A stretch of DNA of 64,000 nt from contig JAJTWR010000383.1 of NCBI GenBank assembly GCA_021613335.1, positions 371,082-435,081 of the forward strand, read 5' to 3'. The stretch's first letter is position 1. The number at the start of each line of letters is the position of its first letter. The DNA comes from Whitmania pigra. Lineage: Eukaryota > Annelida > Clitellata > Hirudinida > Haemopidae. Under the pieces are notes generated by a model. That model had not been told where the DNA came from, ran no database searches, and worked only from the letters and a program-made list of their open reading frames with translations. The translations under genes and the position numbers were made by a program. Below are positions 37,601 through 64,000 of this stretch, one piece after another.

Positions 37601-38522
37601 AACATTATTACTGGAAGCGATACCCTGAAGAAATTATTTATCCAGTTGAACACTCCTCTGCCAGCTAGTGCAGCTGTTGAACGTTTATTCAGCTCTGCTC
37701 GTATGACAAAGAACAGCTGAAGGACCATAATGAGTGACAAACTATTCGAGGACTTAGTTATGTTAAAAATAAACAAAAATTTGTGATTGTAATGTAATAA
37801 ATAATAAAAACACCAAAAGAATGCATTAGTTCAAATGTTATTACTTAATGACTGTTAGTACTAGCAGTTAATACCAGTAATTGTTTTAACGATAAGAGAA
37901 ACAATTCCTTTTAAATAATACGGAATGATGTATGATCACAATAATGGCGGCATCAAAGTTACTTGTAATTTTTACTTAAAAGTAACTTTTAGAAGCTGTA
38001 ACTTTTAACTTTTACTTGAGTAAATTTTTGAGACAATACTCTTACTTATACTTAAGTAGCTTTTTGAGGTATTACTTTTACTTGTAACTAGTTACCGAAA
38101 TGAGGTAATTTTTACAACACTGTCCAGGACTACCTAGACACATAGAGGACACAGTTTCAAACTTGATTTAGTAAATTTTCAACAAATGTTGTCAAATATT
38201 ATTTCTTTAGTAGGAGAGTAATGCTCTGATACGTGACTTTGATTTCAATCGTTTCTTAACATATACCTGATTGTCCTTGTCATTTGGAGCTTGTGTTGTA
38301 CTTTTTGTATGTAAATTGTACAAACTTGTGTTAGTGGTCTCAAAGACCCTTCAGTTAGATGCTTAATAAATAAATAAATAAACATTTAAGTGCCAAATTA
38401 TCCAAATTCTCATTATTTTATTACTTTGAAGTATGTGTTACATTTAAAGAACGAAATATTAATAAAAGATAAAAGTAGCATTTACCTAATGCTCAAAATG
38501 TGCAAACAGATTTCTGTTCCTA

Positions 38523-42605: not shown

Positions 42606-45600
42606 ATGGACGTCGATAGTGCACTTGCTCTGGTTGGCGGATGGAAAAGATGGAACTTGTTCATGTATTTTCTTGTTGGAACATCTCTGTATTTACCACT
42701 TTCTTGGCAGGGTCTTAGCATTGTCTTTGTCGGTCAGTCTGGTTCTGATGATGTAATGAGTTTTATATTAATAGTATATTGTAACAATTATTACATAATA
42801 TTAATGTCGTGGATGGGCAAAAGTTAACTAAAAAATGACTAACTTAGTTGATATATTTTTTTAGTTACTAGAAAAGTTTAACAAAGCTAAAAAAAGTTTA
42901 ACTTAAAGTTAATTTTATTTACCTTCGGAACATTCAAAGAAATATGTACCAATTTGTTCATTATGTTTAGTTCAATATTTTGCAATTGAAAATTATACTT
43001 GTGATTCAAACTCTGGTTTTGTTAATTTCTGCAACAATCTGCAGCAAACTTCTGCAAACAATTCTGCAGCATCAATCAAAAGTGATGGGCAGAATACAAT
43101 TGACATCATAACTATTTTGATGCGTGAATGTTGGCAATTGCCTGCAAGAAATTGATAGATATGATGATGAAGTTGTACCTTCTAAAGTTTTCATTTACTA
43201 AATTTAGTTACAAGTGTGGATACTTTAGAAGCTAGGAATGATAAGTTGTACAAAAAGTCCTACGATTGAAAATAAGTAAAGTACAAATTGCAGGAAAAAA
43301 CATTTATTCAGACAAATTCTACCAGATGATGCAACAAACACTACAATTAATATGAATATTAAAAAGCTGAGAATTATTAACATTGTTAAACGTTTTAATA
43401 TAATAATTAAATTGTTAAGGTGTGCGGCTTAAACTACTGAAGAAAATAAATGCTGATCTTGACAGGATGGGAACCTCCACATTCCTGCGTAGAATCAGAA
43501 TCTGGGAAGAGTCAGATAAACACCACGCACATCGAACTTTCTCAGACGTGGTCAAATCTGAGTGAACGAAATCAAAGTCATTTTGATTCAAGATGTTACT
43601 TTGAAAAATATGATAATCAGACTGGCAATGTTTCTGTAGGGAAGTGTAATAGATGGACAGTTGAAAACAATGGTTACCATACCATTGTCGAAGAGGTACA
43701 GATTTTTAGTTATTTTAAACTTTTTTGGGTTTATTATCCTTCAATTTAAAATATGTTATTCTGTGTTTATATTTGAATTCCAATGACTAAGAATCTCAAG
43801 AAAAATTAAATAATATGACAAATATCATTAAATAAACCCTTGCCGGGAAGAAGTCCACATAAATTTCTTTGAATTAATGATTCAAGTTGGCAACGTCGTG
43901 AATTTTTAATTTAAAAATGAAATTCCACATAGTTTCGTGCTTTATGTTTATTACTTTTAAGCCAATTAATAAAAAACATAATTCTGTAATAATGAAAACC
44001 TTTTTTCTCATCTTTCCATCAGTGGGGCTTGGTTTGCGATTGGAACTACATGGCCGAATTGTCTCAAATATTGTACCAATTAGGCTCAATAATTGGAAAT
44101 ATGTTTTCCTTCCTGATGGACAGGTATGGTCGAAAGAGACTCCATATCATCACTCACATCTGCATCTGCATCATCGGCTTGATCAACGCTTACTCAGTGA
44201 ACTACGTAATGTTTGCTTTGAGCAAAATTGCTCTGGGATTCCTCGTAGAGGTTAGAAGCAGTGTTGTGCAGTATCGAATTACATGTAATTCGTTACTGTA
44301 ATTAATTACATTTTTTGGTAATTTTTACTTGTAACAATTACAAAAAATTTTTTGTACTCTTACTTGTAACAAATTACTATTTTTGGTCATACTTTTAATT
44401 CGTTACCTTTTTGGCGCAAGACGTTACAAAGTAACATAAATAACATTTTAAATTAGTTTAATTTATTTTAAAAAAATTTAAATTCTAGATTGTTATTCTT
44501 TGGTTCGTTCGAGAACCTTCCCCTTCCCGATCATCGCTCTTTTGTTATTGTGGTTATCGCCGGTCGTTTTTGTTTTAAATCGGAAATTGTTGATTAGTCA
44601 TACCGAAGCTTTTTATAATATATAATATTATATACATATAATATAAGATTTAATATATCGTAGTATGGATTCATTTGAAGCCATTTTTAGTGTCGTTAGC
44701 GAAGATAAGAGGAACAAGGGTGAAGATAGTCCGTGGCCGTATTTGAACAAAATGTTCAGATTTCAATCAAAGGAAAATCATATAAGTATGCGTGCCTACT
44801 CTGCCAACAGAAACAAAAACTACATGTTCAGCATATGAAGGTTCTTCATCTAACTTGAAGTAGCACGTGGAACGCATGCATCCAACAGAATTTAAGGAAT
44901 ATGGGATATCTGTTGCCAACGGTTGTCAAGCTTCATGAGAAACTGGTAGCCAAAATAACATCTTCTAATGCAGCAAAGATGGACGAGCTTTGAGCTCTCG
45001 TTCATCTGATGATGTCATCCGATCAGATGACATGAACATTATTACTGGAAGCGATACCCTGAAGAAATTATTTATCCAGTTGAACACTCCTCTGCCAGCT
45101 AGTGCAGCTGTTGAACGTTTATTCAGCTCTTCTGGTATGACAAAGAACAGCTGAAGGACCATAATGAGTGACAAACTATTCGAGGACTTAGTTATGTTAA
45201 AAATTAACAAAAAATTGTGATTGTAATGTAATAAATAATAAAAACACCAAAAGAATGCATTAGTTCAAATGTTATTATTTAATGACTGTTAGTACTAGCA
45301 GTTAATACCAGTAATTGTTTTAACGATAAGAGAAACAATTCCTTTTAAATAATACGGAATGATGTATGATCACAATAATGGCGGCATCAAAGTTACTTGT
45401 AATTTTTACTTAAAAGTAACTTTTGGACGCTGTAACTTTTAACTTTTACTTGAGTAAATTTTTGAGACAATACTCTTACTTATACTTAAGTAGCTTTTTG
45501 AGGTATTACTTTTACTTGTAACTAGTTACCGAAATGAGGTAATTTTTACAACACTGGTTAGAAGAATACTCATAACCAATGATAAACTTGATTTTTTCAT

Positions 45601-48600
45601 TTTTCATTAAAAATATTCGCATTGACAACCTTACTGTGAAACATCAGTTTTTGTTAAAATAATGAAATGCCCACTCAATAACAATATCGAGCCGAAATAA
45701 CTAGTCTAGAGAAACAATTGTGAAATAACACCACATTCCAGAGGATTTTTTTTAATCATCTCCGTCTAACTCCACAATGCTTGCACTTCGCTCCATTATG
45801 CTGCCTCGAACTCTTATCAAGGGCCGCATGCTTCGTTTCGAAGATTCCTTAAAATAGCAATAATTATTCCTTAAAATATGTTAATAAAATTTACCAATAC
45901 ATTTTTACAATCATAAAAATTTCTGATGTTTTCCAGTCAGGGTTATAACAATATTTTTTGTAGATTAACTGCACCTCGGGTACGATGCTCCTTCTGGAAT
46001 TCTTCGACGCGAAACGCAGGACACTTTCTGGCATATTTCTCGAATACTTCTGGACTGTGTGTTATATCGCCTTACCAGGGATGGCTTACCTGATCAAAGG
46101 CTGGAGCATTCTGCAGATAACCATCTCAGTGGCATCTCTGATTTTGTCATTACTAATAATGTACGTTATTATTTCGAACTAAAATTAGCTTGGTTTGGTT
46201 ATTTCTGTAGTTACCTCAAAATTAACGCAATTGCATATGCATGTTATTAAAAACAAGTTGATTTCTCTAGAATGTATCTTCACATACATCTTACTATAGT
46301 ACTAATAAATTTTGATTGCAGCTCTGCAGTATCAAAATTTTAAAAAATTAATATTTTTAAAAAATATTTTTTTACAGACCGATACCAGAACCTCCTTCCT
46401 GGTTGATAACCAGAGGTAAAACCGAGAAGGCAGACAAAATTCTTCGAAATGTCGCAAGGTGGAATAAAGTCAAAGTTAACCACTTGATATTTGATTTGAT
46501 TAAATTACAATATAACATCTCAACAAAAGTTTATTGCTTATATTTTTCAGCTAGACCCAGACATTGTGCTTGTCTCCAAAATTCTGAAACCAATCGAGCA
46601 AACAGCCGAAGAACAACGTTGTATAACATCTGAAATGGCATCTTTTGCACCAGGCAATACAAAAGAGGAAAATAGTTCTAGAGGATGTAAGACTGATGAG
46701 GAAGTTGTAAATGATGTATCCATTATTGAACCATTCACCTACGAACCGAAAAAGAACTCGATGAAAAGACACCTCTTAGATCCTGTCATACTTAAGTGTC
46801 TCGCTATTTCGAGCCTTTTATGGTGAGTATTTGTCTATATCTGGTTATATCGAACTTTAAAAATTAATTCATATCTTAAATTTGAAAGCGTAAATAATAC
46901 ATCTGAAACTGCGTTTGATGATCTCCAAAACGTTTCTTTTTTTTCAAAAATTCATTTTTTTGTTTTGATCATTTGAGCTTGACTTGGAATATGAAATGTC
47001 AGTGATGGGTAGTTACTAACTATAAGTAGTTAACTACTAGTTAATAACTACTTTAAAGTAGTTAGGAAGTAGTTAATAACTACTCTTAAAAAAGTATTTA
47101 AAAAATTTAACTATTTGTAGTTAATAACTACTTTAAAAATAGTTAACTACTTTTTAACTACTTTAAAAAAAATTTTAAAATAAAATGAAGAAAAATATTT
47201 TATTCCAATTTTGCAATTTGTTACATCACTTTATAAATACAGTTTCTTTGTTTTCAACTTTTGCTTACTACCGCCATTTCTCGTTTCTGAATTATTACTC
47301 TTAGTAGTCGTATTCTGAAAACGTTTTATGTAAATTGCGATTTGGTTTTATATAAATTTGCGATTTTAATGCAGCTAATTTTGTCAAGGCATTTTCTTTA
47401 GTTGTTGAGAAAAACTCTGTTACTGATGGCATGGACACGGATGAGCCATTATGTGATATTTCTGAATATCTTGTTGGCGAAAATATAGCCGATTTGATTG
47501 AAAACGAACAAGATATTACAAATGCGGATAATGCGCTTCTTTTGCCTCCTTATAAGCGCTGCGGTAATCATACCTTAAATCTTGTGGCTACTGTGGGGCA
47601 CCCCGTCATAACAGCCCGGCGACAGAATAGCCCCGACAAAACAGCCCCGTCAAAATAGCCCGGCGTCAAAATAGCTCAAGACAAAACAGCCCCGACAAAA
47701 CCGCCCCGACAAAACGGCCCCGTCGAAACAGCCCTGCGTCAAAATAGCCCAGGACGGAAAAATCCCGTAAAAATGGCCCCGTCAAAATAGCCCCGACAAA
47801 ACCGCCCGGCGACAAAATAGCCCAGGACAAAACAACCCGGCGACAAAATAGCCCGGCGACAGTTTGATCAACTTAAACATAAGAAATACTAGAGTATAAA
47901 ATTTCTATTCACTATTAACTATTATAACAGCTTTTTATCGTTTCACTGGTAGATGCTAAAACATCAATGATTTCATTGTTATTGATTCTTGGAAAAGAGT
48001 CTTTCTCACAAGACATCAGCATGAATGATCTTGATGAAAACGACCTCTCACAAGCAACTTGTGATGAGGATAATGTCAACACAAATTTGTAAGCCAGATA
48101 CAAATAATATAAATACAATAATATATACGAATAAGCAAGACTATGCAAATTAAACTTCTGGAGAACAATAATAACAACAAACAATACTCAAAACGGTCAA
48201 AGCATTCAAGCCACTAATTTCGAATTAAATTTTGATTCAGTTTCACAACATTTTTTTAAAATACTTTGACATGGAGTTATCGTGGGGCTATAATGACGGG
48301 GCTATTTTTTCGCCGGGCTATTTTGTCGCCGGGTTGTTTTGTCCTGGGCTATTTTGTCGCCGGGCTATTTTGACGGGGCCATTTTGACGGGGCTATTTTG
48401 TCTTGGGCTATTTTGACGCCGGGCTGTTTCGACGGGGCTGTTTTGTCGGGGCGGTTTTGTCGGGGCTGTTTTGTCTTGAGCTATTTTGACGCCGGGCTAT
48501 TTTGACGGGGCTGTTTTGTCGGGGCTATTCTGTCGCCGGGCTGTTATGACGGGTCACCCTACTGTGGATGCAATGAAAGCAAGGGATAATCTGCGATACA

Positions 48601-58165: not shown

Positions 58166-58218
58166 TTAGCGTTAAAATATTTGACGTTGTTTAATATTAG
58201 AACAAATACTTTGACGCT

Positions 58219-61200
58219 ATGGAATTTGATTCTGCTTTAGAAAAAGTCAGCGCCTTCAAGCCAATTCAACTTGCTGTCTTCACGTTTATTTGTCTAAGCA
58301 AGTCGTTCGTCGTGGCAATTATTGGAGTCAGCGTGATTTTCATAGGTAAGAGTTACCATTTCAAGATATTTCTCTGTTCGACGATATTAAATTCACTAAT
58401 CAGCACATTCTCAGTTCGAGCGTCTATACCAGTGGTTCACGAAGTTATTTTTGGCGCCCCATTTTCAAAGAAAGAATTCTATTTTAATATCCTAATTATT
58501 GATCATAAGCAGTAAGGCCGAGAGTTTATCCTAGTTCTTATGTTCATGGAAGGCAATGGACAAATGACAAAGCTTTTAATTGATTGTTACTTTTATAAAT
58601 TACTATTACGCTAAATTATTTTGAATTTCTTGCAATTATTTTGCCACACTTAGGCTGGCAACCGAAACACTATTGCAACAGTTCGTTGCCATACCTTGAC
58701 TCTTCTTCATCAAGTTCATCAGATGTCAATAATTTTCTACAAACTGATAATCGACCGGTAAATTTTACACAAAAATCTTCAGGCAGTTAATTAAGCCTTA
58801 ACTAACTATGAACAAGACTAAATGGGGTTATTATATATGCACGTGTTACAGAATCTCAGCGAACTATTAGATCCCAGATGTCATCAGTATGAACTGATGA
58901 ACATAACCATTCACAATGACACCAAATTCTTCTACAAAGCAGCACCTTGTATCAAAGGATGGACGTACATCAATGAAGGCTACCATACAATTGTAGAAGA
59001 GGTTTAAAATGTTAAACTGACAATCTATAAATCAAATACTAAAATATTCATAAAACCCAATTCACAAATTTTTTTGTGTTTCAGTGGGACCTCATCTGTG
59101 AAAGGGGTTTCCTGGTCGAATTGTCCCACAGCGTCTTTCCGTTGGGTTCCCTGATTGGAGACAGCCTTCTGACCTTTCTCATCGACAAATATGGAAGAAA
59201 AACTCTCCACCTGGCTACGCACGCTGCCATCTGCATCATTGGAATTGCTCACGCATTTTCCACAAACTACATCATGTTTGTTGTGACGAAAGTTGTTCTC
59301 GGGATGTTCTCATCCGTGAGTTATTTTATTTTTAAAATCATCTTAACAATGTGTGCTCATAAAAGCTTTTAAGCATGGCACGAATAACTCGAATTCATGT
59401 TGGTTCTCCGTTTTAAATATCCATGTTAATAAATACTCAGAAATAGTTGTAGGCAGGTGTTTGGTAACAGGTAGTTGGTGATTGAATGCGTAGAAGGTGA
59501 CTTCAAGACAAACAAAAACAGTTTAAAAATCATAGGTCTTACTTTAAAGGTGAACTTTACTTCTGGAAATCTCTTGAGCTTGGAAATGTTCAGTTCAAAA
59601 CGTAGAGCACTCTCTGCTATGGGTGGACAGCTCGTAGTCATAGCGATCTTAATCGTAACACCTGTCTTAGCCTGGAACCTGACCAATTGGAGGCGTTTCC
59701 TTCTCTTTACCACTACGATATCTGCTCTCTTTCTAATCGTGGGAATGTGAGTTCGCTGTGTTGTCACTGCTAAATGCATTTTTCTAATCTGAAATCATAT
59801 GATTTATTATTGATAAATCCGTCTTAATTTATTTTATATTTTAGTTTTAATTTGAATCTAGTTTTAAATTCTTTAAAGGTTCTTACCAGAATCTCCTCAA
59901 TGGCTTTTCTCAGTCGGAAGGTTCGAAGAGGCCGACAAAATATTGCGAACGATGGCCAAATGGAATGGTATCAAAGTGAGATTGAATTTACTGAAGTATA
60001 AACAAATTAAAAAAAAAATGTTAATAAAAATCCACCACATGTGTTTTGCTATTGATACAAATTTTTAGATTTCTTAATATTATCCCCACATTATTTTATT
60101 TAATTATTCTAAGTTTTAAAGAATCATTGAAACTTTTTCAAATATGTTCTAGCTTACACAAGGAACAAAGCTTCTATCACCGGTAACCATTGAGATTAAA
60201 TTAGCAGAGGGAGATGGTGATGGCTTGAGGCATCATGAAATTCAGGTGACGAAAACCAAAAATTTAATTGGCAATAGCTCTCTTGATAAAAATGCCGGCG
60301 ACATAATGGCTATAAAAGACCAAATTAACAGTTTCAACAATACTAAAATCGACACAACAATGGCAGAAGCAGCATCAATGCCTCTAACAGCAAAACATCT
60401 CTTCACAGATTCAACTCTTTTGAAGTTTATAGTCTTAATGAGCTTTATTTGGTGAGCATTCGTAGCTGATTATTATTTAGAAGTTATTCAATGTCTGCTG
60501 TTGGCATTATTTTCTACTAGGTTTTGCTATATTCCAGCAAATAATCACTTTTGTCATAAATGATAATGCTATAATTCCTTTACGAAAATATGTAGAAGAC
60601 TTAAAGGTAACGAGCATTATTCAATCCTTTGGAATTTCATTTAAAGGATATTTCGTTGTCGAATTGAAGGCTAAAAGGTCAATTTAACCAAGAAATCATT
60701 GCTCACAGGATTATTTGTATTTTAAAATTTAGTAGACGTAATGCAGCGACGGGTCATTTCAATCTCTTGATATTGTTATAAATACGTACTGTTGATTTCA
60801 GGTTTAGCAACAATATCGTGATGAGTGGCGTGATCCTTGCCACTCCCAGTTTGGGAGGAAATAGATTCTTCAATTTCTTCTTGTTATTTATAGTTGACAT
60901 TCCGTCACTCGTTGTAGCAACTGCGATGTGCAGCAGGTTGAAAACAATATTTATTTGCAACTAATTATATTATTACCTTTGCAATAAAAATACTTTAGTA
61001 CTTAAAACAAGTTAATGACAATCGATGACATGTATAAAAAATTGTCATGAAGAATAGATTATATATTGCGATTCATAATTTATCTGAAATATTTCCTCAG
61101 AATTGGAAGAAAACCAATGTTATTTATTTCTCAACTTATGGGCGGAATTTTTGCAGGATCAATAGTTCTTATGCCTCTGAATATCGGTAAATATTAAATA

Positions 61201-61994
61201 TACTGATTTCAATATTTATATAAAATGAGATTGAAAAAACTATGCAATTAGAATATAACAAAATAATAAGTGTTAAAGGAAGAGTTTAATTCAAAATAAT
61301 AAATACAATGTAAAGTAATGCAATCGATGAAAACATTTAATGAAGCTGGAGTAAACATGTTTTGGTGGAGATTCGTCTTAATAGTCTTGTCTAAAAGCTT
61401 CTTGATGGTGTCGAAGTCCGTCATATTTCTCTACACCAAAGAAATATTCCCAGTGAGACTATGGTAAGTTACCTTCACAAGATATAGTGTAGTAGGTTAA
61501 TTAAAATGAACCGCATAAACTTAATAATCAAATGAAAAGCAGAGTTTAATTGAAAAACCTTGTCAAAGCTAAATTAAAATGATTCCATAGCAACATCATA
61601 GGTAATTTGAATATTTGAAATTTTATGTTTTAATGAACACGAAAACACAAAGCCACAAAAATGTTACACAATACAATTTATGTTAGCGCAACGGCATACG
61701 GAATCTGCCAATTATGGGGAAGAATTGGTTTAATCCTGGCACCAACAGCATCTTATATGGTAAATACAACATTTTACATTTTTCAAAAAAAAAATAAATA
61801 AAAATAACAAAGTCTCATTTAAAAATCATTAAAATAACCAATTCACATTGTAGATGAAGACAGGTTACAAAAAAATGCCTTTCATATTTTTTGCAATAGC
61901 ATCAATATCCAGCAGTTTAATGATGTATTTCCTGCCAGAAACAAAAGACAAGATATCACCGGAAACGCCAAACGATTGCACCAAATTATACTAA
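58219..61994 (+). CDS. SLC22-like organic ion transporter, copy G, divergent (12 exons, 585 aa)
   Basis: Exons: 58219-58345, 58654-58757, 58852-59001, 59085-59315, 59550-59746, 59879-59975, 60153-60451, 60802-60936, 61101-61186, 61346-61463, 61687-61759, 61854-61994; 1758 nt, open to TAA. The exon 2 equivalent is split by a 94-bp phase-0 intron (58758-58851) seen in no other copy; without it the frame hits TAA at about 58788. Loop motif DKYGRK at about residues 161-166, PESPQW at about 273-278, C-terminal [16 protein letters not shown]. Compact: no transposon in any intron. Predicted plasma-membrane organic-ion carrier, the most diverged member here, substrate unknown. The exon 9 (61346) acceptor lacks a good polypyrimidine tract, so that boundary is less sure. 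Confidence 0.85.
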
Positions 61995-62034: not shown

Positions 62035-62155
62035 ACAAAACAAAGTGCATTAATTGCTCTCTCACATTAAATAGTAAATAATAAGACAACAATAAGTCCC
62101 GTTTAACGACTGAGAGAAGGAGCCAAAGAAAGCTCCGTGATTCTCGTGCACGGCC

Positions 62156-62235
62156 GCCTAGGTAGGGCGTCAGTTTCATAATCCGATCTCGAAAGAGTGA
62201 TCTGAAGGTCGTGAGTTCGATCCTCACCCTGGGCA
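62156..62235 (+). pseudogene. tRNA-Met pseudogene (array edge copy)
   Basis: Lacks 12 nt of the D arm (GCCTAGGTAGGGCGTCAG) and has TTCATAA for the CTCATAA anticodon loop. The acceptor and T arms and the 19-nt intron are kept. The A box is destroyed, so it is probably not transcribed. Confidence 0.85.
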
Positions 62236-62391
62236 GGTGGAGTTTTGAGGGCAAACCTCGACATCAGAAGAGCCCCGTTTGGCGATTTGTTTCATCAAAT
62301 TGGCAGTATAGTGCAGGTGCACGGCGTTTTGGGCTCGTTTAACGACTGAGAGAAGGAGCCAAGGAAAGCTCCGTGATTCACGTGCACGGCC

Positions 62392-62483
62392 GCCTAGGTA
62401 GCGCAGTAGGTAGCGCGTCAGTCTCATAATCCGATCTCGAAAGAGTGATCTGAAGGTCGTGAGTTCGATCCTCACCCTGGGCA
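62392..62483 (+). tRNA. tRNA-Met(CAU), elongator type, with 19-nt intron
   Basis: Acceptor stem GCCTAGG pairs with CCTGGGC (one G-U), discriminator A. T arm GTGAG/CTCAC around TTCGATC. Anticodon CAT at 62425-62427. Intron 62429-62447 after position 37; removing it gives the canonical animal elongator Met anticodon arm TCAGTCTCATAATCTGA. Mature length 73 nt before CCA addition. Confidence 0.93.
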
Positions 62484-62639
62484 GGTGGAGTTTTGAGGGC
62501 AAACCTCGACATCAGAAGAGCCCCGTTTGGCGATTTGTTTCATCAAATTGGCAGTATAGTGCAGGTGCACGGCGTTTTGGGCTCGTTTAACGACTGAGAG
62601 AAGGAGCCAAGGAAAGCTCCGTGATTCTCGTGCACGGCT

Positions 62640-62731
62640 GCCTAGGTAGCGCAGTAGGTAGCGCGTCAGTCTCATAATCCGATCTCGAAAGAGTGATCTG
62701 AAGGTCGTGAGTTCTATCCTCACCCTGGGCA
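62640..62731 (+). tRNA. tRNA-Met(CAU) with 19-nt intron, T-loop variant
   Basis: Same structure as the copy at 62392, but the T loop reads TTCTATC instead of TTCGATC. This changes a conserved B-box position (G57 to T) and may weaken transcription or folding. Confidence 0.85.
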
Positions 62732-62880
62732 GGTGGAGTTTTGAGGGCAAACCTCGACATCAGAAGAGCCCCGTTTGCCGATTTGTTTCAAACTGGCACT
62801 AACTTGCGCACGGCGTTTTGGGCTCGTTTAACGACTGAGAGAAGGAGCCAAGGAAAGCTCCGTGATTCTCGTGCACGGCC

Positions 62881-62972
62881 GCCTAGGTAGCGCAGTAGGT
62901 AGCGCGTCAGTCTCATAATCCGATCTCGAAAGAGTGATCTGAAGGTCGTGAGTTCGATCCTCACCCTGGGCA
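62881..62972 (+). tRNA. tRNA-Met(CAU) with 19-nt intron
   Basis: Identical to the tRNA at 62392 through acceptor, D, anticodon and T arms; followed by TTTT. Confidence 0.93.
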
Positions 62973-63121
62973 GGTGGAGTTTTGAGGGCAAACCTCGACA
63001 TCAGAAGAGCACCGTTTGCCGATTTGTTTCAAACTGGCACTAACTTGCGCACGGCGTTTTGGGCTCGTTTAACGACTGAGAGAAGGAGCCAAGGAAAGCT
63101 CCGTGATTCGCGTGCACGGCC

Positions 63122-63213
63122 GCCTAGGTAGCGCAGTAGGTAGCGCGTCAGTCTCATAATCCGATCTCGAAAGAGTGATCTGAAGGTCGTGAGTTCGATC
63201 CTCACCCTGGGCA
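63122..63213 (+). tRNA. tRNA-Met(CAU) with 19-nt intron
   Basis: Identical structural elements; the upstream flank has GTGATTCGCG where most units have GTGATTCTCG. Confidence 0.93.
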
Positions 63214-63369
63214 GGTGGAGTTTTGAGGGCAAACCTCGACATCAGAAGAGCCCCGTTTGCCGATTTGTTTCATCAAATTGGCAGTATAGTGCAGGTGCAC
63301 GGCGTTTTGGGCTCGTTTAACGACTGAGAGAAGGAGCCAAGGAAAGCTCCGTGATTCTCGTGCACGGCC

Positions 63370-63461
63370 GCCTAGGTAGCGCAGTAGGTAGCGCGTCAGT
63401 CTCATAATCCGATCTCGAAAGAGTGATCTGAAGGTCGTGAGTTCGATCCTCACCCTGGGCA
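63370..63461 (+). tRNA. tRNA-Met(CAU) with 19-nt intron
   Basis: Identical structural elements; preceded by a type A spacer. Confidence 0.93.
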
Positions 63462-63617
63462 GGTGGAGTTTTGAGGGCAAACCTCGACATCAGAAGAGCC
63501 CCGTTTGCCGATTTGTTTCATCAAATTGGCAGTATAGTGCAGGTGCACGGCGTTTTGGGCTCGTTTAACGACTGAGAGAAGGAGCCAAGGAAAGCTCCGT
63601 GATTCGCGTGCACGGCT

Positions 63618-63709
63618 GCCTAGGTAGCGCAGTAGGTAGCGCGTCAGTCTCATAATCCGATCTCGAAAGAGTGATCTGAAGGTCGTGAGTTCGATCCTCA
63701 CCCTGGGCA
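63618..63709 (+). tRNA. tRNA-Met(CAU) with 19-nt intron
   Basis: Identical structural elements, with a normal T loop. Its upstream base GGCTG matches only the unit at 62640, four copies earlier. Confidence 0.93.
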
Positions 63710-63858
63710 GGTGGAGTTTTGAGGGCAAACCTCGACATCAGAAGAGCACCGTTTGCCGATTTGTTTCAAACTGGCACTAACTTGCGCACGGCGTTTTGGG
63801 CTCGTTTAACGACTGAGAGAAGGAGCCAAGGAAAGCTCCGTGATTCTCGTGCACGGCC

Positions 63859-63950
63859 GCCTAGGTAGCGCAGTAGGTAGCGCGTCAGTCTCATAATCCG
63901 ATCTCGAAAGAGTGATCTGAAGGTCGTGAGTTCGATCCTCACCCTGGGCA
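63859..63950 (+). tRNA. tRNA-Met(CAU) with 19-nt intron
   Basis: Identical structural elements; last full copy in the window. Confidence 0.93.
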
Positions 63951-64000
63951 GGTGGAGTTTTGAGGGCAAACCTCGACATCAGAAGAGCACCGTTTGCCGA

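Follow-up and report, generated by a model that had tools for sequence, protein, structure and literature searches.

Introns in animal transfer RNA (tRNA) genes usually interrupt those for Tyr, Leu-CAA, Ile-UAU and Arg-UCU, a list that we take as general background and that the first-pass annotation of the present locus also gave. The last 1900 bases of the window, by which we mean the whole 64,000-nucleotide stretch of Whitmania pigra DNA analyzed here (assembly GCA_021613335.1, contig JAJTWR010000383.1, positions 371,082 to 435,081), consist of repeated units carrying a tRNA-Met(CAU) sequence with 19 extra nucleotides next to the anticodon, which raises the question of whether these units are functional elongator tRNA-Met genes bearing an intron or tRNA-like repeats of another kind. 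The evidence presented here makes it highly likely, as far as sequence can tell, that the tandem units of this locus are working nuclear genes for elongator tRNA-Met that would be transcribed by RNA polymerase III, would depend on splicing and would be subject to homogenization.

The array occupies positions 62101-64000 of the forward strand and is made of eight head-to-tail units with similar spacers, seven complete and one cut, which start at positions 62101, 62337, 62585, 62826, 63067, 63315, 63563 and 63804. Their lengths are, in order, 236, 248, 241, 241, 248, 248 and 241 bp, the eighth unit being cut where the contig (C347), and with it the window, ends. Tandem Repeats Finder (TRF) reported repeats at 62159-64000 and 62100-64000 (matches of 96% and 93%, respectively), and each unit contains a single tRNA-Met gene, 92 bp long when intact. 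ARAGORN recognized seven tRNA-Met(cat) genes in the window, and the Rfam tRNA model (RF00005, cut-off of 29 bits) gave eight matches, six of them with 57.6 bits, that at 62640 with 54.8 bits and that at 62156-62235 with 33.5 bits; the E-values were 7.9e-10 to 4.6e-9 for seven copies and 0.0035 for the first one. The tandem array of intron-bearing tRNA-Met(CAU) genes proposed in the first-pass annotation was recovered, and the array and its genes are beyond doubt.

The intact genes, all on the forward strand, were placed by ARAGORN and Rfam at 62392..62483, 62881..62972, 63122..63213, 63370..63461 and 63859..63950 (the final gene before the contig end), and by Rfam and alignment at 62640..62731, where the T-loop G57 is changed to T, and at 63618..63709. 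In the alignment, the edge copy at 62156..62235 (forward strand), which was missed by ARAGORN, has a 12-bp deletion in the D arm as well as C32 changed to T, and it is probably a pseudogene. The CAU anticodon, together with the score of 57.6 bits, identifies the gene as tRNA-Met, and its G1-C72 pair marks it as elongator rather than initiator, the latter being distinguished by an A1:U72 pair (PMC8450103) that is absent here. In each of the eight units a TTTT tract lies 7 nt past the gene (62980..62983, forward strand, for the gene at 62881) and is likely an RNA polymerase III terminator.

Two spacer types, those of the 248- and 241-bp units (A and B), follow each other in the order AABB AABB, the cut eighth unit being B-like where present, which confirms the annotated order (A A B B A A B) and extends it by one unit. 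The GGCTG variant at base -1 of the gene, which had been annotated as recurring every fourth unit, was indeed found in units 3 and 7, directly upstream of the genes at 62640 and 63618 and 978 bp apart. The 978-bp higher-order unit deduced from it fared less well. It may be real, but a likeness at lag 4 equal to or greater than that observed was obtained in 1920 of the 40320 possible orders of eight units (4.8%) and in 432 of the 5040 orders of the seven complete ones (8.6%), and the pattern stays weak because two periods are insufficient to show it.

The 19-nt intron (62918..62936, forward strand, in the copy at 62881) is the same in all eight window copies, in agreement with what had been annotated for the complete ones. 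It lies between CTCATA and ATCTGA, that is, after A37 at the canonical 37/38 site used by the tRNA splicing endonuclease (TSEN), and its ends can slide by up to 3 nt, with ATC present at both. C32, U33 and C34 can form three contiguous pairs with G-3, A-4 and G-5 of the intron, including the proximal C32-G pair, and by our reading this pairing leaves a three-base bulge at the 3' cut (U-G before and A after it). The corresponding first pair is C-G in 16 of 16 Drosophila intron-containing tRNAs (PMC6614914). The Met intron can thus pair with the anticodon loop in the manner that would be expected of a TSEN substrate. When introns were shuffled, 593 of 20000 equaled its contiguous pairing from C32-G(-3), with G-U pairs allowed.

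Without its 19 nt, the gene becomes an ordinary 73-nt elongator tRNA-Met with the anticodon stem TCAG/CTGA, which we take to resemble the animal elongator tRNA-Met sequence. The same bases could in principle form a long variable arm instead of an intron, as in a class II-like tRNA-Met somewhat similar to the nematode nev-tRNAs (PMC4033280); ARAGORN indeed places them 3' of an anticodon stem TCAGT/TCCGA, and a CTC-GAAA-GAG hairpin can be drawn by eye. However, the stem that this arrangement needs contains A-C and U-U mismatches, whereas removal of the 19 nt yields the regular form just described, and the Lys-UUU genes of the same genome, discussed below, are arranged alike at the same position. 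We therefore regard a variable arm as very improbable and treat the 19 nt as an intron.

To what extent the array accounts for the elongator tRNA-Met genes of this animal was examined in the whole assembly (178 Mb in 381 contigs), in which a DNA search with the tRNA-Met gene gave counts that are lower bounds, very common words being skipped. At least 12 copies were found, each of the 12 candidates being a match, and 10 copies are intact and full length; over 92 nt, nine intact copies, the query included, are 100% identical and one is 99% identical. Tandem units of this kind are also present at the start of another contig, C369, where two are complete and the next one is interrupted within the gene; both complete units are of A type and are too few for testing the AABB pattern. 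The same contig carries a solitary intact copy (C369:12727-12818, equivalent to L041:2727-2818, reverse strand) that is identical over 92 bp, intron included. This copy lies between tropomyosin exons, on the same strand as tropomyosin, with flanks unrelated to the array units and a TTTT likewise 7 nt past the gene. Intronless Met-CAU genes, whose possible existence the first-pass annotation had raised, gave no match in the 178 Mb when searched with a 23-base anticodon-arm pattern allowing up to three mismatches, a pattern search run without a positive control.

These counts bear on the possibility that the units are a tRNA-derived satellite or a repeat like a short interspersed element (SINE), that is, non-functional tRNA-like sequences duplicated in tandem. 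Such an origin would fit the likeness across the whole unit, spacers included, as well as the dispersed copy and the edge copy with a broken D arm, and a large diverged family could be under-seen by a search that yields lower bounds. Nevertheless, only one of the 12 copies found, with every candidate scored, is dispersed, and 10 of the 12 are intact. Moreover, the solitary copy has the gene in common with the array and hardly any flank, and it shows no target-site duplication of the usual length, since its 40 upstream and 60 downstream bases have no word longer than 5 bp in common. The intronless-arm pattern, with the limit stated above, revealed no further elongator Met gene. Taken together, these data make a satellite or SINE-like origin improbable.

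Because the assembly contains bacterial contigs, it was also relevant whether the array might derive from a co-assembled organism or be a false repeat. The 2.9-Mb contig C360 (L052), with 60% GC and a bacterial tRNA-tuf-ribosomal-protein cluster, is by its gene content a co-assembled bacterium, since its NusG (24 matching loci) is closest to myxococcal genomes, the best match being 84% identical; furthermore, the end of C347 and the start of C369 both fall within the array. In contrast, an SLC22-like transporter gene (58201..61994, forward strand; exons read by eye) lies directly upstream of the array in the window, and the array of C369 adjoins another SLC22-like gene, also read by eye. The exon at 59043-59369 matched Pfam Sugar_tr with 31.7 bits (cut-off 22.3), MFS_1 staying below its cut-off, and the joined SLC22-like protein matched one protein at E<=0.001 among 7994 scored candidates, from a beetle and 25% identical. 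The joined tropomyosin of C369 gave 184 protein matches, and in a tree of 37 rows (35 hand-picked from 120 listed matches, plus the query and the human sequence) it grouped with 22 sequences. The SLC22-like genes on both sides and the tropomyosin exons around the solitary copy support an animal as the host. Since the units differ by single-nucleotide polymorphisms and indels, the array is not one unit copied by the assembler, and we likewise consider a foreign or artefactual array very unlikely. An SLC22-like gene adjoins the array on both contigs, and C347 and C369 are therefore very likely neighbors separated by further array units.

The anatomy of the genes, the identity of their copies, the form of the array and the solitary copy are shown by the sequence itself. 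Beyond this, we propose that RNA polymerase III would transcribe each gene from its internal promoter as far as the TTTT, that TSEN would excise the 19-nt intron after A37 and that an animal ligase such as RtcB would join the tRNA halves. Unequal exchange or gene conversion would keep most copies alike, as in concerted evolution, while some copies would decay, notably at the array borders. Since the pattern search of the assembly revealed no intronless elongator gene, the decoding of internal AUG codons in this animal would need tRNA splicing. Among the ten units of C347 and C369 compared (the first unit left out), 1 of 73 exon columns, 0 of 19 intron columns and 14 of 156 spacer columns are variable, and this difference between tRNA and spacer (1/92 versus 14/156 columns; Fisher p=0.012) fits, if thinly, selection acting on top of homogenization.

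The Met array is not the only one in this genome. An Rfam tRNA search, in which 63 of 9771 candidates were scored and stretches around some matches were examined, and which is therefore a sample, revealed five kinds of arrays with several isotypes: Met, Cys, Lys-UUU, Thr-AGU/Leu-CAG and Thr-UGU/CGU. Cys-GCA genes about 273 bp apart form arrays of 22 copies at the end of C63 (L042:2280-8074) and of 18 copies at the start of C325 (L043:200-4916). On C129, an array of Thr-UGU and Thr-CGU genes extends from the contig start over at least 13 kb (L054:1-10000 and L056:1-3000); ARAGORN counted 36 genes in the initial 10 kb, of which one was called Tyr, and a further 11 in the 3 kb that follow. The start of C329 (L044:396-1624) carries three Thr-AGU genes in alternation with two Leu-CAG genes on the opposite strand, the repeated unit being about 578 bp long. 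The other end of that contig carries seven copies on the reverse strand (L048:8111-9958) that ARAGORN labeled Stop(tta) and that we read as Lys-UUU genes interrupted after position 37 by a 22-nt intron. Their intron can form five contiguous pairs with the anticodon loop, two of them G-U, which was equaled by 508 of 20000 shuffled introns. Introns are thus present in the Met and Lys genes and absent from the Cys, Thr and Leu array genes.

The Cys, Thr, Thr/Leu and Lys arrays each lie at the beginning or end of a contig. Some of the contig ends examined lack such an array: in stretches of 0.5-10 kb, ARAGORN found no tRNA gene at either end of C100, the start of C347, the end of C369, the start of C358, the end of C325 or the start of C246. 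None of 15 loci, including the two ends each of C100, C329 and C369 as well as the start of C347, contained doubled TTAGGG, TTAGG, TTAGGC or TTGGG. The contig-end position of the Met array, its counterpart on C369, the solitary copy, the other tRNA arrays and the Lys-UUU intron had all escaped the first-pass annotation. In addition to these arrays, six Ala-CGC tRNA genes form a loose cluster on C51 (L045), with a spacing of 0.5-3 kb.

As to the decay of border copies, the first window copy of the Met array lacks D-arm bases and the border copy of C369 is cut off; copies 1-8 of the 22 Cys genes of C63 score 40.3-62.6 bits, the remaining 14 all scoring 69.0, and the border copy of the seven Lys genes scores 52.6 bits, five others reaching 62.2. 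Several results nevertheless speak against parts of the proposed explanation. In the Cys array of C325, the border pair is among the 13 of 18 copies that score 69.0 bits, the five lower ones (49.5-60.1) being internal, and the weakest Lys copy (40.6 bits) is an inner one; decay is commonest at some borders yet not confined there, and there is no rule. The free fold of the tRNA-Met precursor is not a full cloverleaf (-30.5 kcal/mol, versus -28.9 for the constrained cloverleaf, 1.6 weaker), and its fold has a z value of -1.87, with 5 of 200 shuffles folding equally well. The p value of 0.012 is not clean evidence of selection, because homogenization alone could make array copies alike. Finally, tRNA arrays are places where the assembly breaks, so that an intronless array might have been left unassembled and be absent from the 178 Mb.

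Like the usual animal tRNA introns listed at the outset, those described here are short, lie at position 37/38 and have a C32-G proximal pair, but the isotypes are elongator Met and Lys-UUU. In the literature searched, which did not cover tRNA databases and gives no proof of absence, we found no published case of an animal elongator tRNA-Met or Lys-UUU gene with an intron. The genome of another animal, the cnidarian Hydractinia, contains tRNA units of several isotypes that are evenly spaced and near-identical and have similar spacers, and tRNA arrays are also known from Nematostella; the accessible part of that report, however, mentions no nuclear tRNA-Met intron for Hydractinia (PMC11067881). 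Entamoeba likewise has tandem tRNA arrays homogenized by concerted evolution, with one to several tRNA genes per unit and, in some, an intron-bearing Leu-TAA, but it is an amoebozoan in which almost all tRNA genes are arrayed, and the arrays of E. histolytica, with short tandem repeats between the genes, make up more than 10% of its genome (PMC2652664, PMC2888827). Introns of elongator tRNA-Met were present in every flowering-plant genome of one survey and share a GAGT motif near the 3' end (here GAGTG), as pairing with the loop bases CUC would demand, whereas the angiosperm introns tend to begin with GCT and the present one with ATCC (PMC11700998); the plant and present introns were likely gained independently. 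An elongator-Met intron has also been described in a nucleomorph (PMC4090602).

Hence, tRNA arrays and elongator-Met introns are each already known, and their combination in an animal looks new. Most of the elongator Met genes found in this small invertebrate genome sit in array form as near-identical copies, and their 19-nt intron would have to be removed for the tRNA-Met to function. According to one review, introns are seldom gained or lost in eukaryotic tRNA genes, and the outcome of such events may be stochastic (PMC4090602). Arrays would offer a plain route to fixation, in which one intron-bearing unit spreads by homogenization. Because homogenization can drive such a unit to fixation, we tentatively suggest, as a possibility about which we remain somewhat doubtful, that this animal lineage transferred a large part of its tRNA genes to Entamoeba-like arrays and thereby fixed introns in isotypes that are elsewhere intronless in animals (elongator Met and Lys-UUU), so that every internal AUG would depend on splicing. 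Since several isotypes are arrayed, of which Met and Lys have introns and Cys, Thr and Leu lack them, this route is testable, and in such an animal a loss of tRNA splicing should immediately impair the decoding of Met and perhaps also that of Lys.

Upstream of the array, SLC22-like exons read by eye recur along positions 1-62000 of the window (for example at 2165, 12017, 21863, 43996 and 59043) and probably represent a tandem family of transporter genes. TRF also detected repeats with a 14-bp period (CCCCGACAAAACAG) at 47601-47854 and, about 450 bp further on, an inverted counterpart at 48299-48553, which could be the arms of a mobile element, and one 36-bp tandem repeat consensus occurs twice in the window, at 38008-38083 and 45442-45517, 7.4 kb apart.
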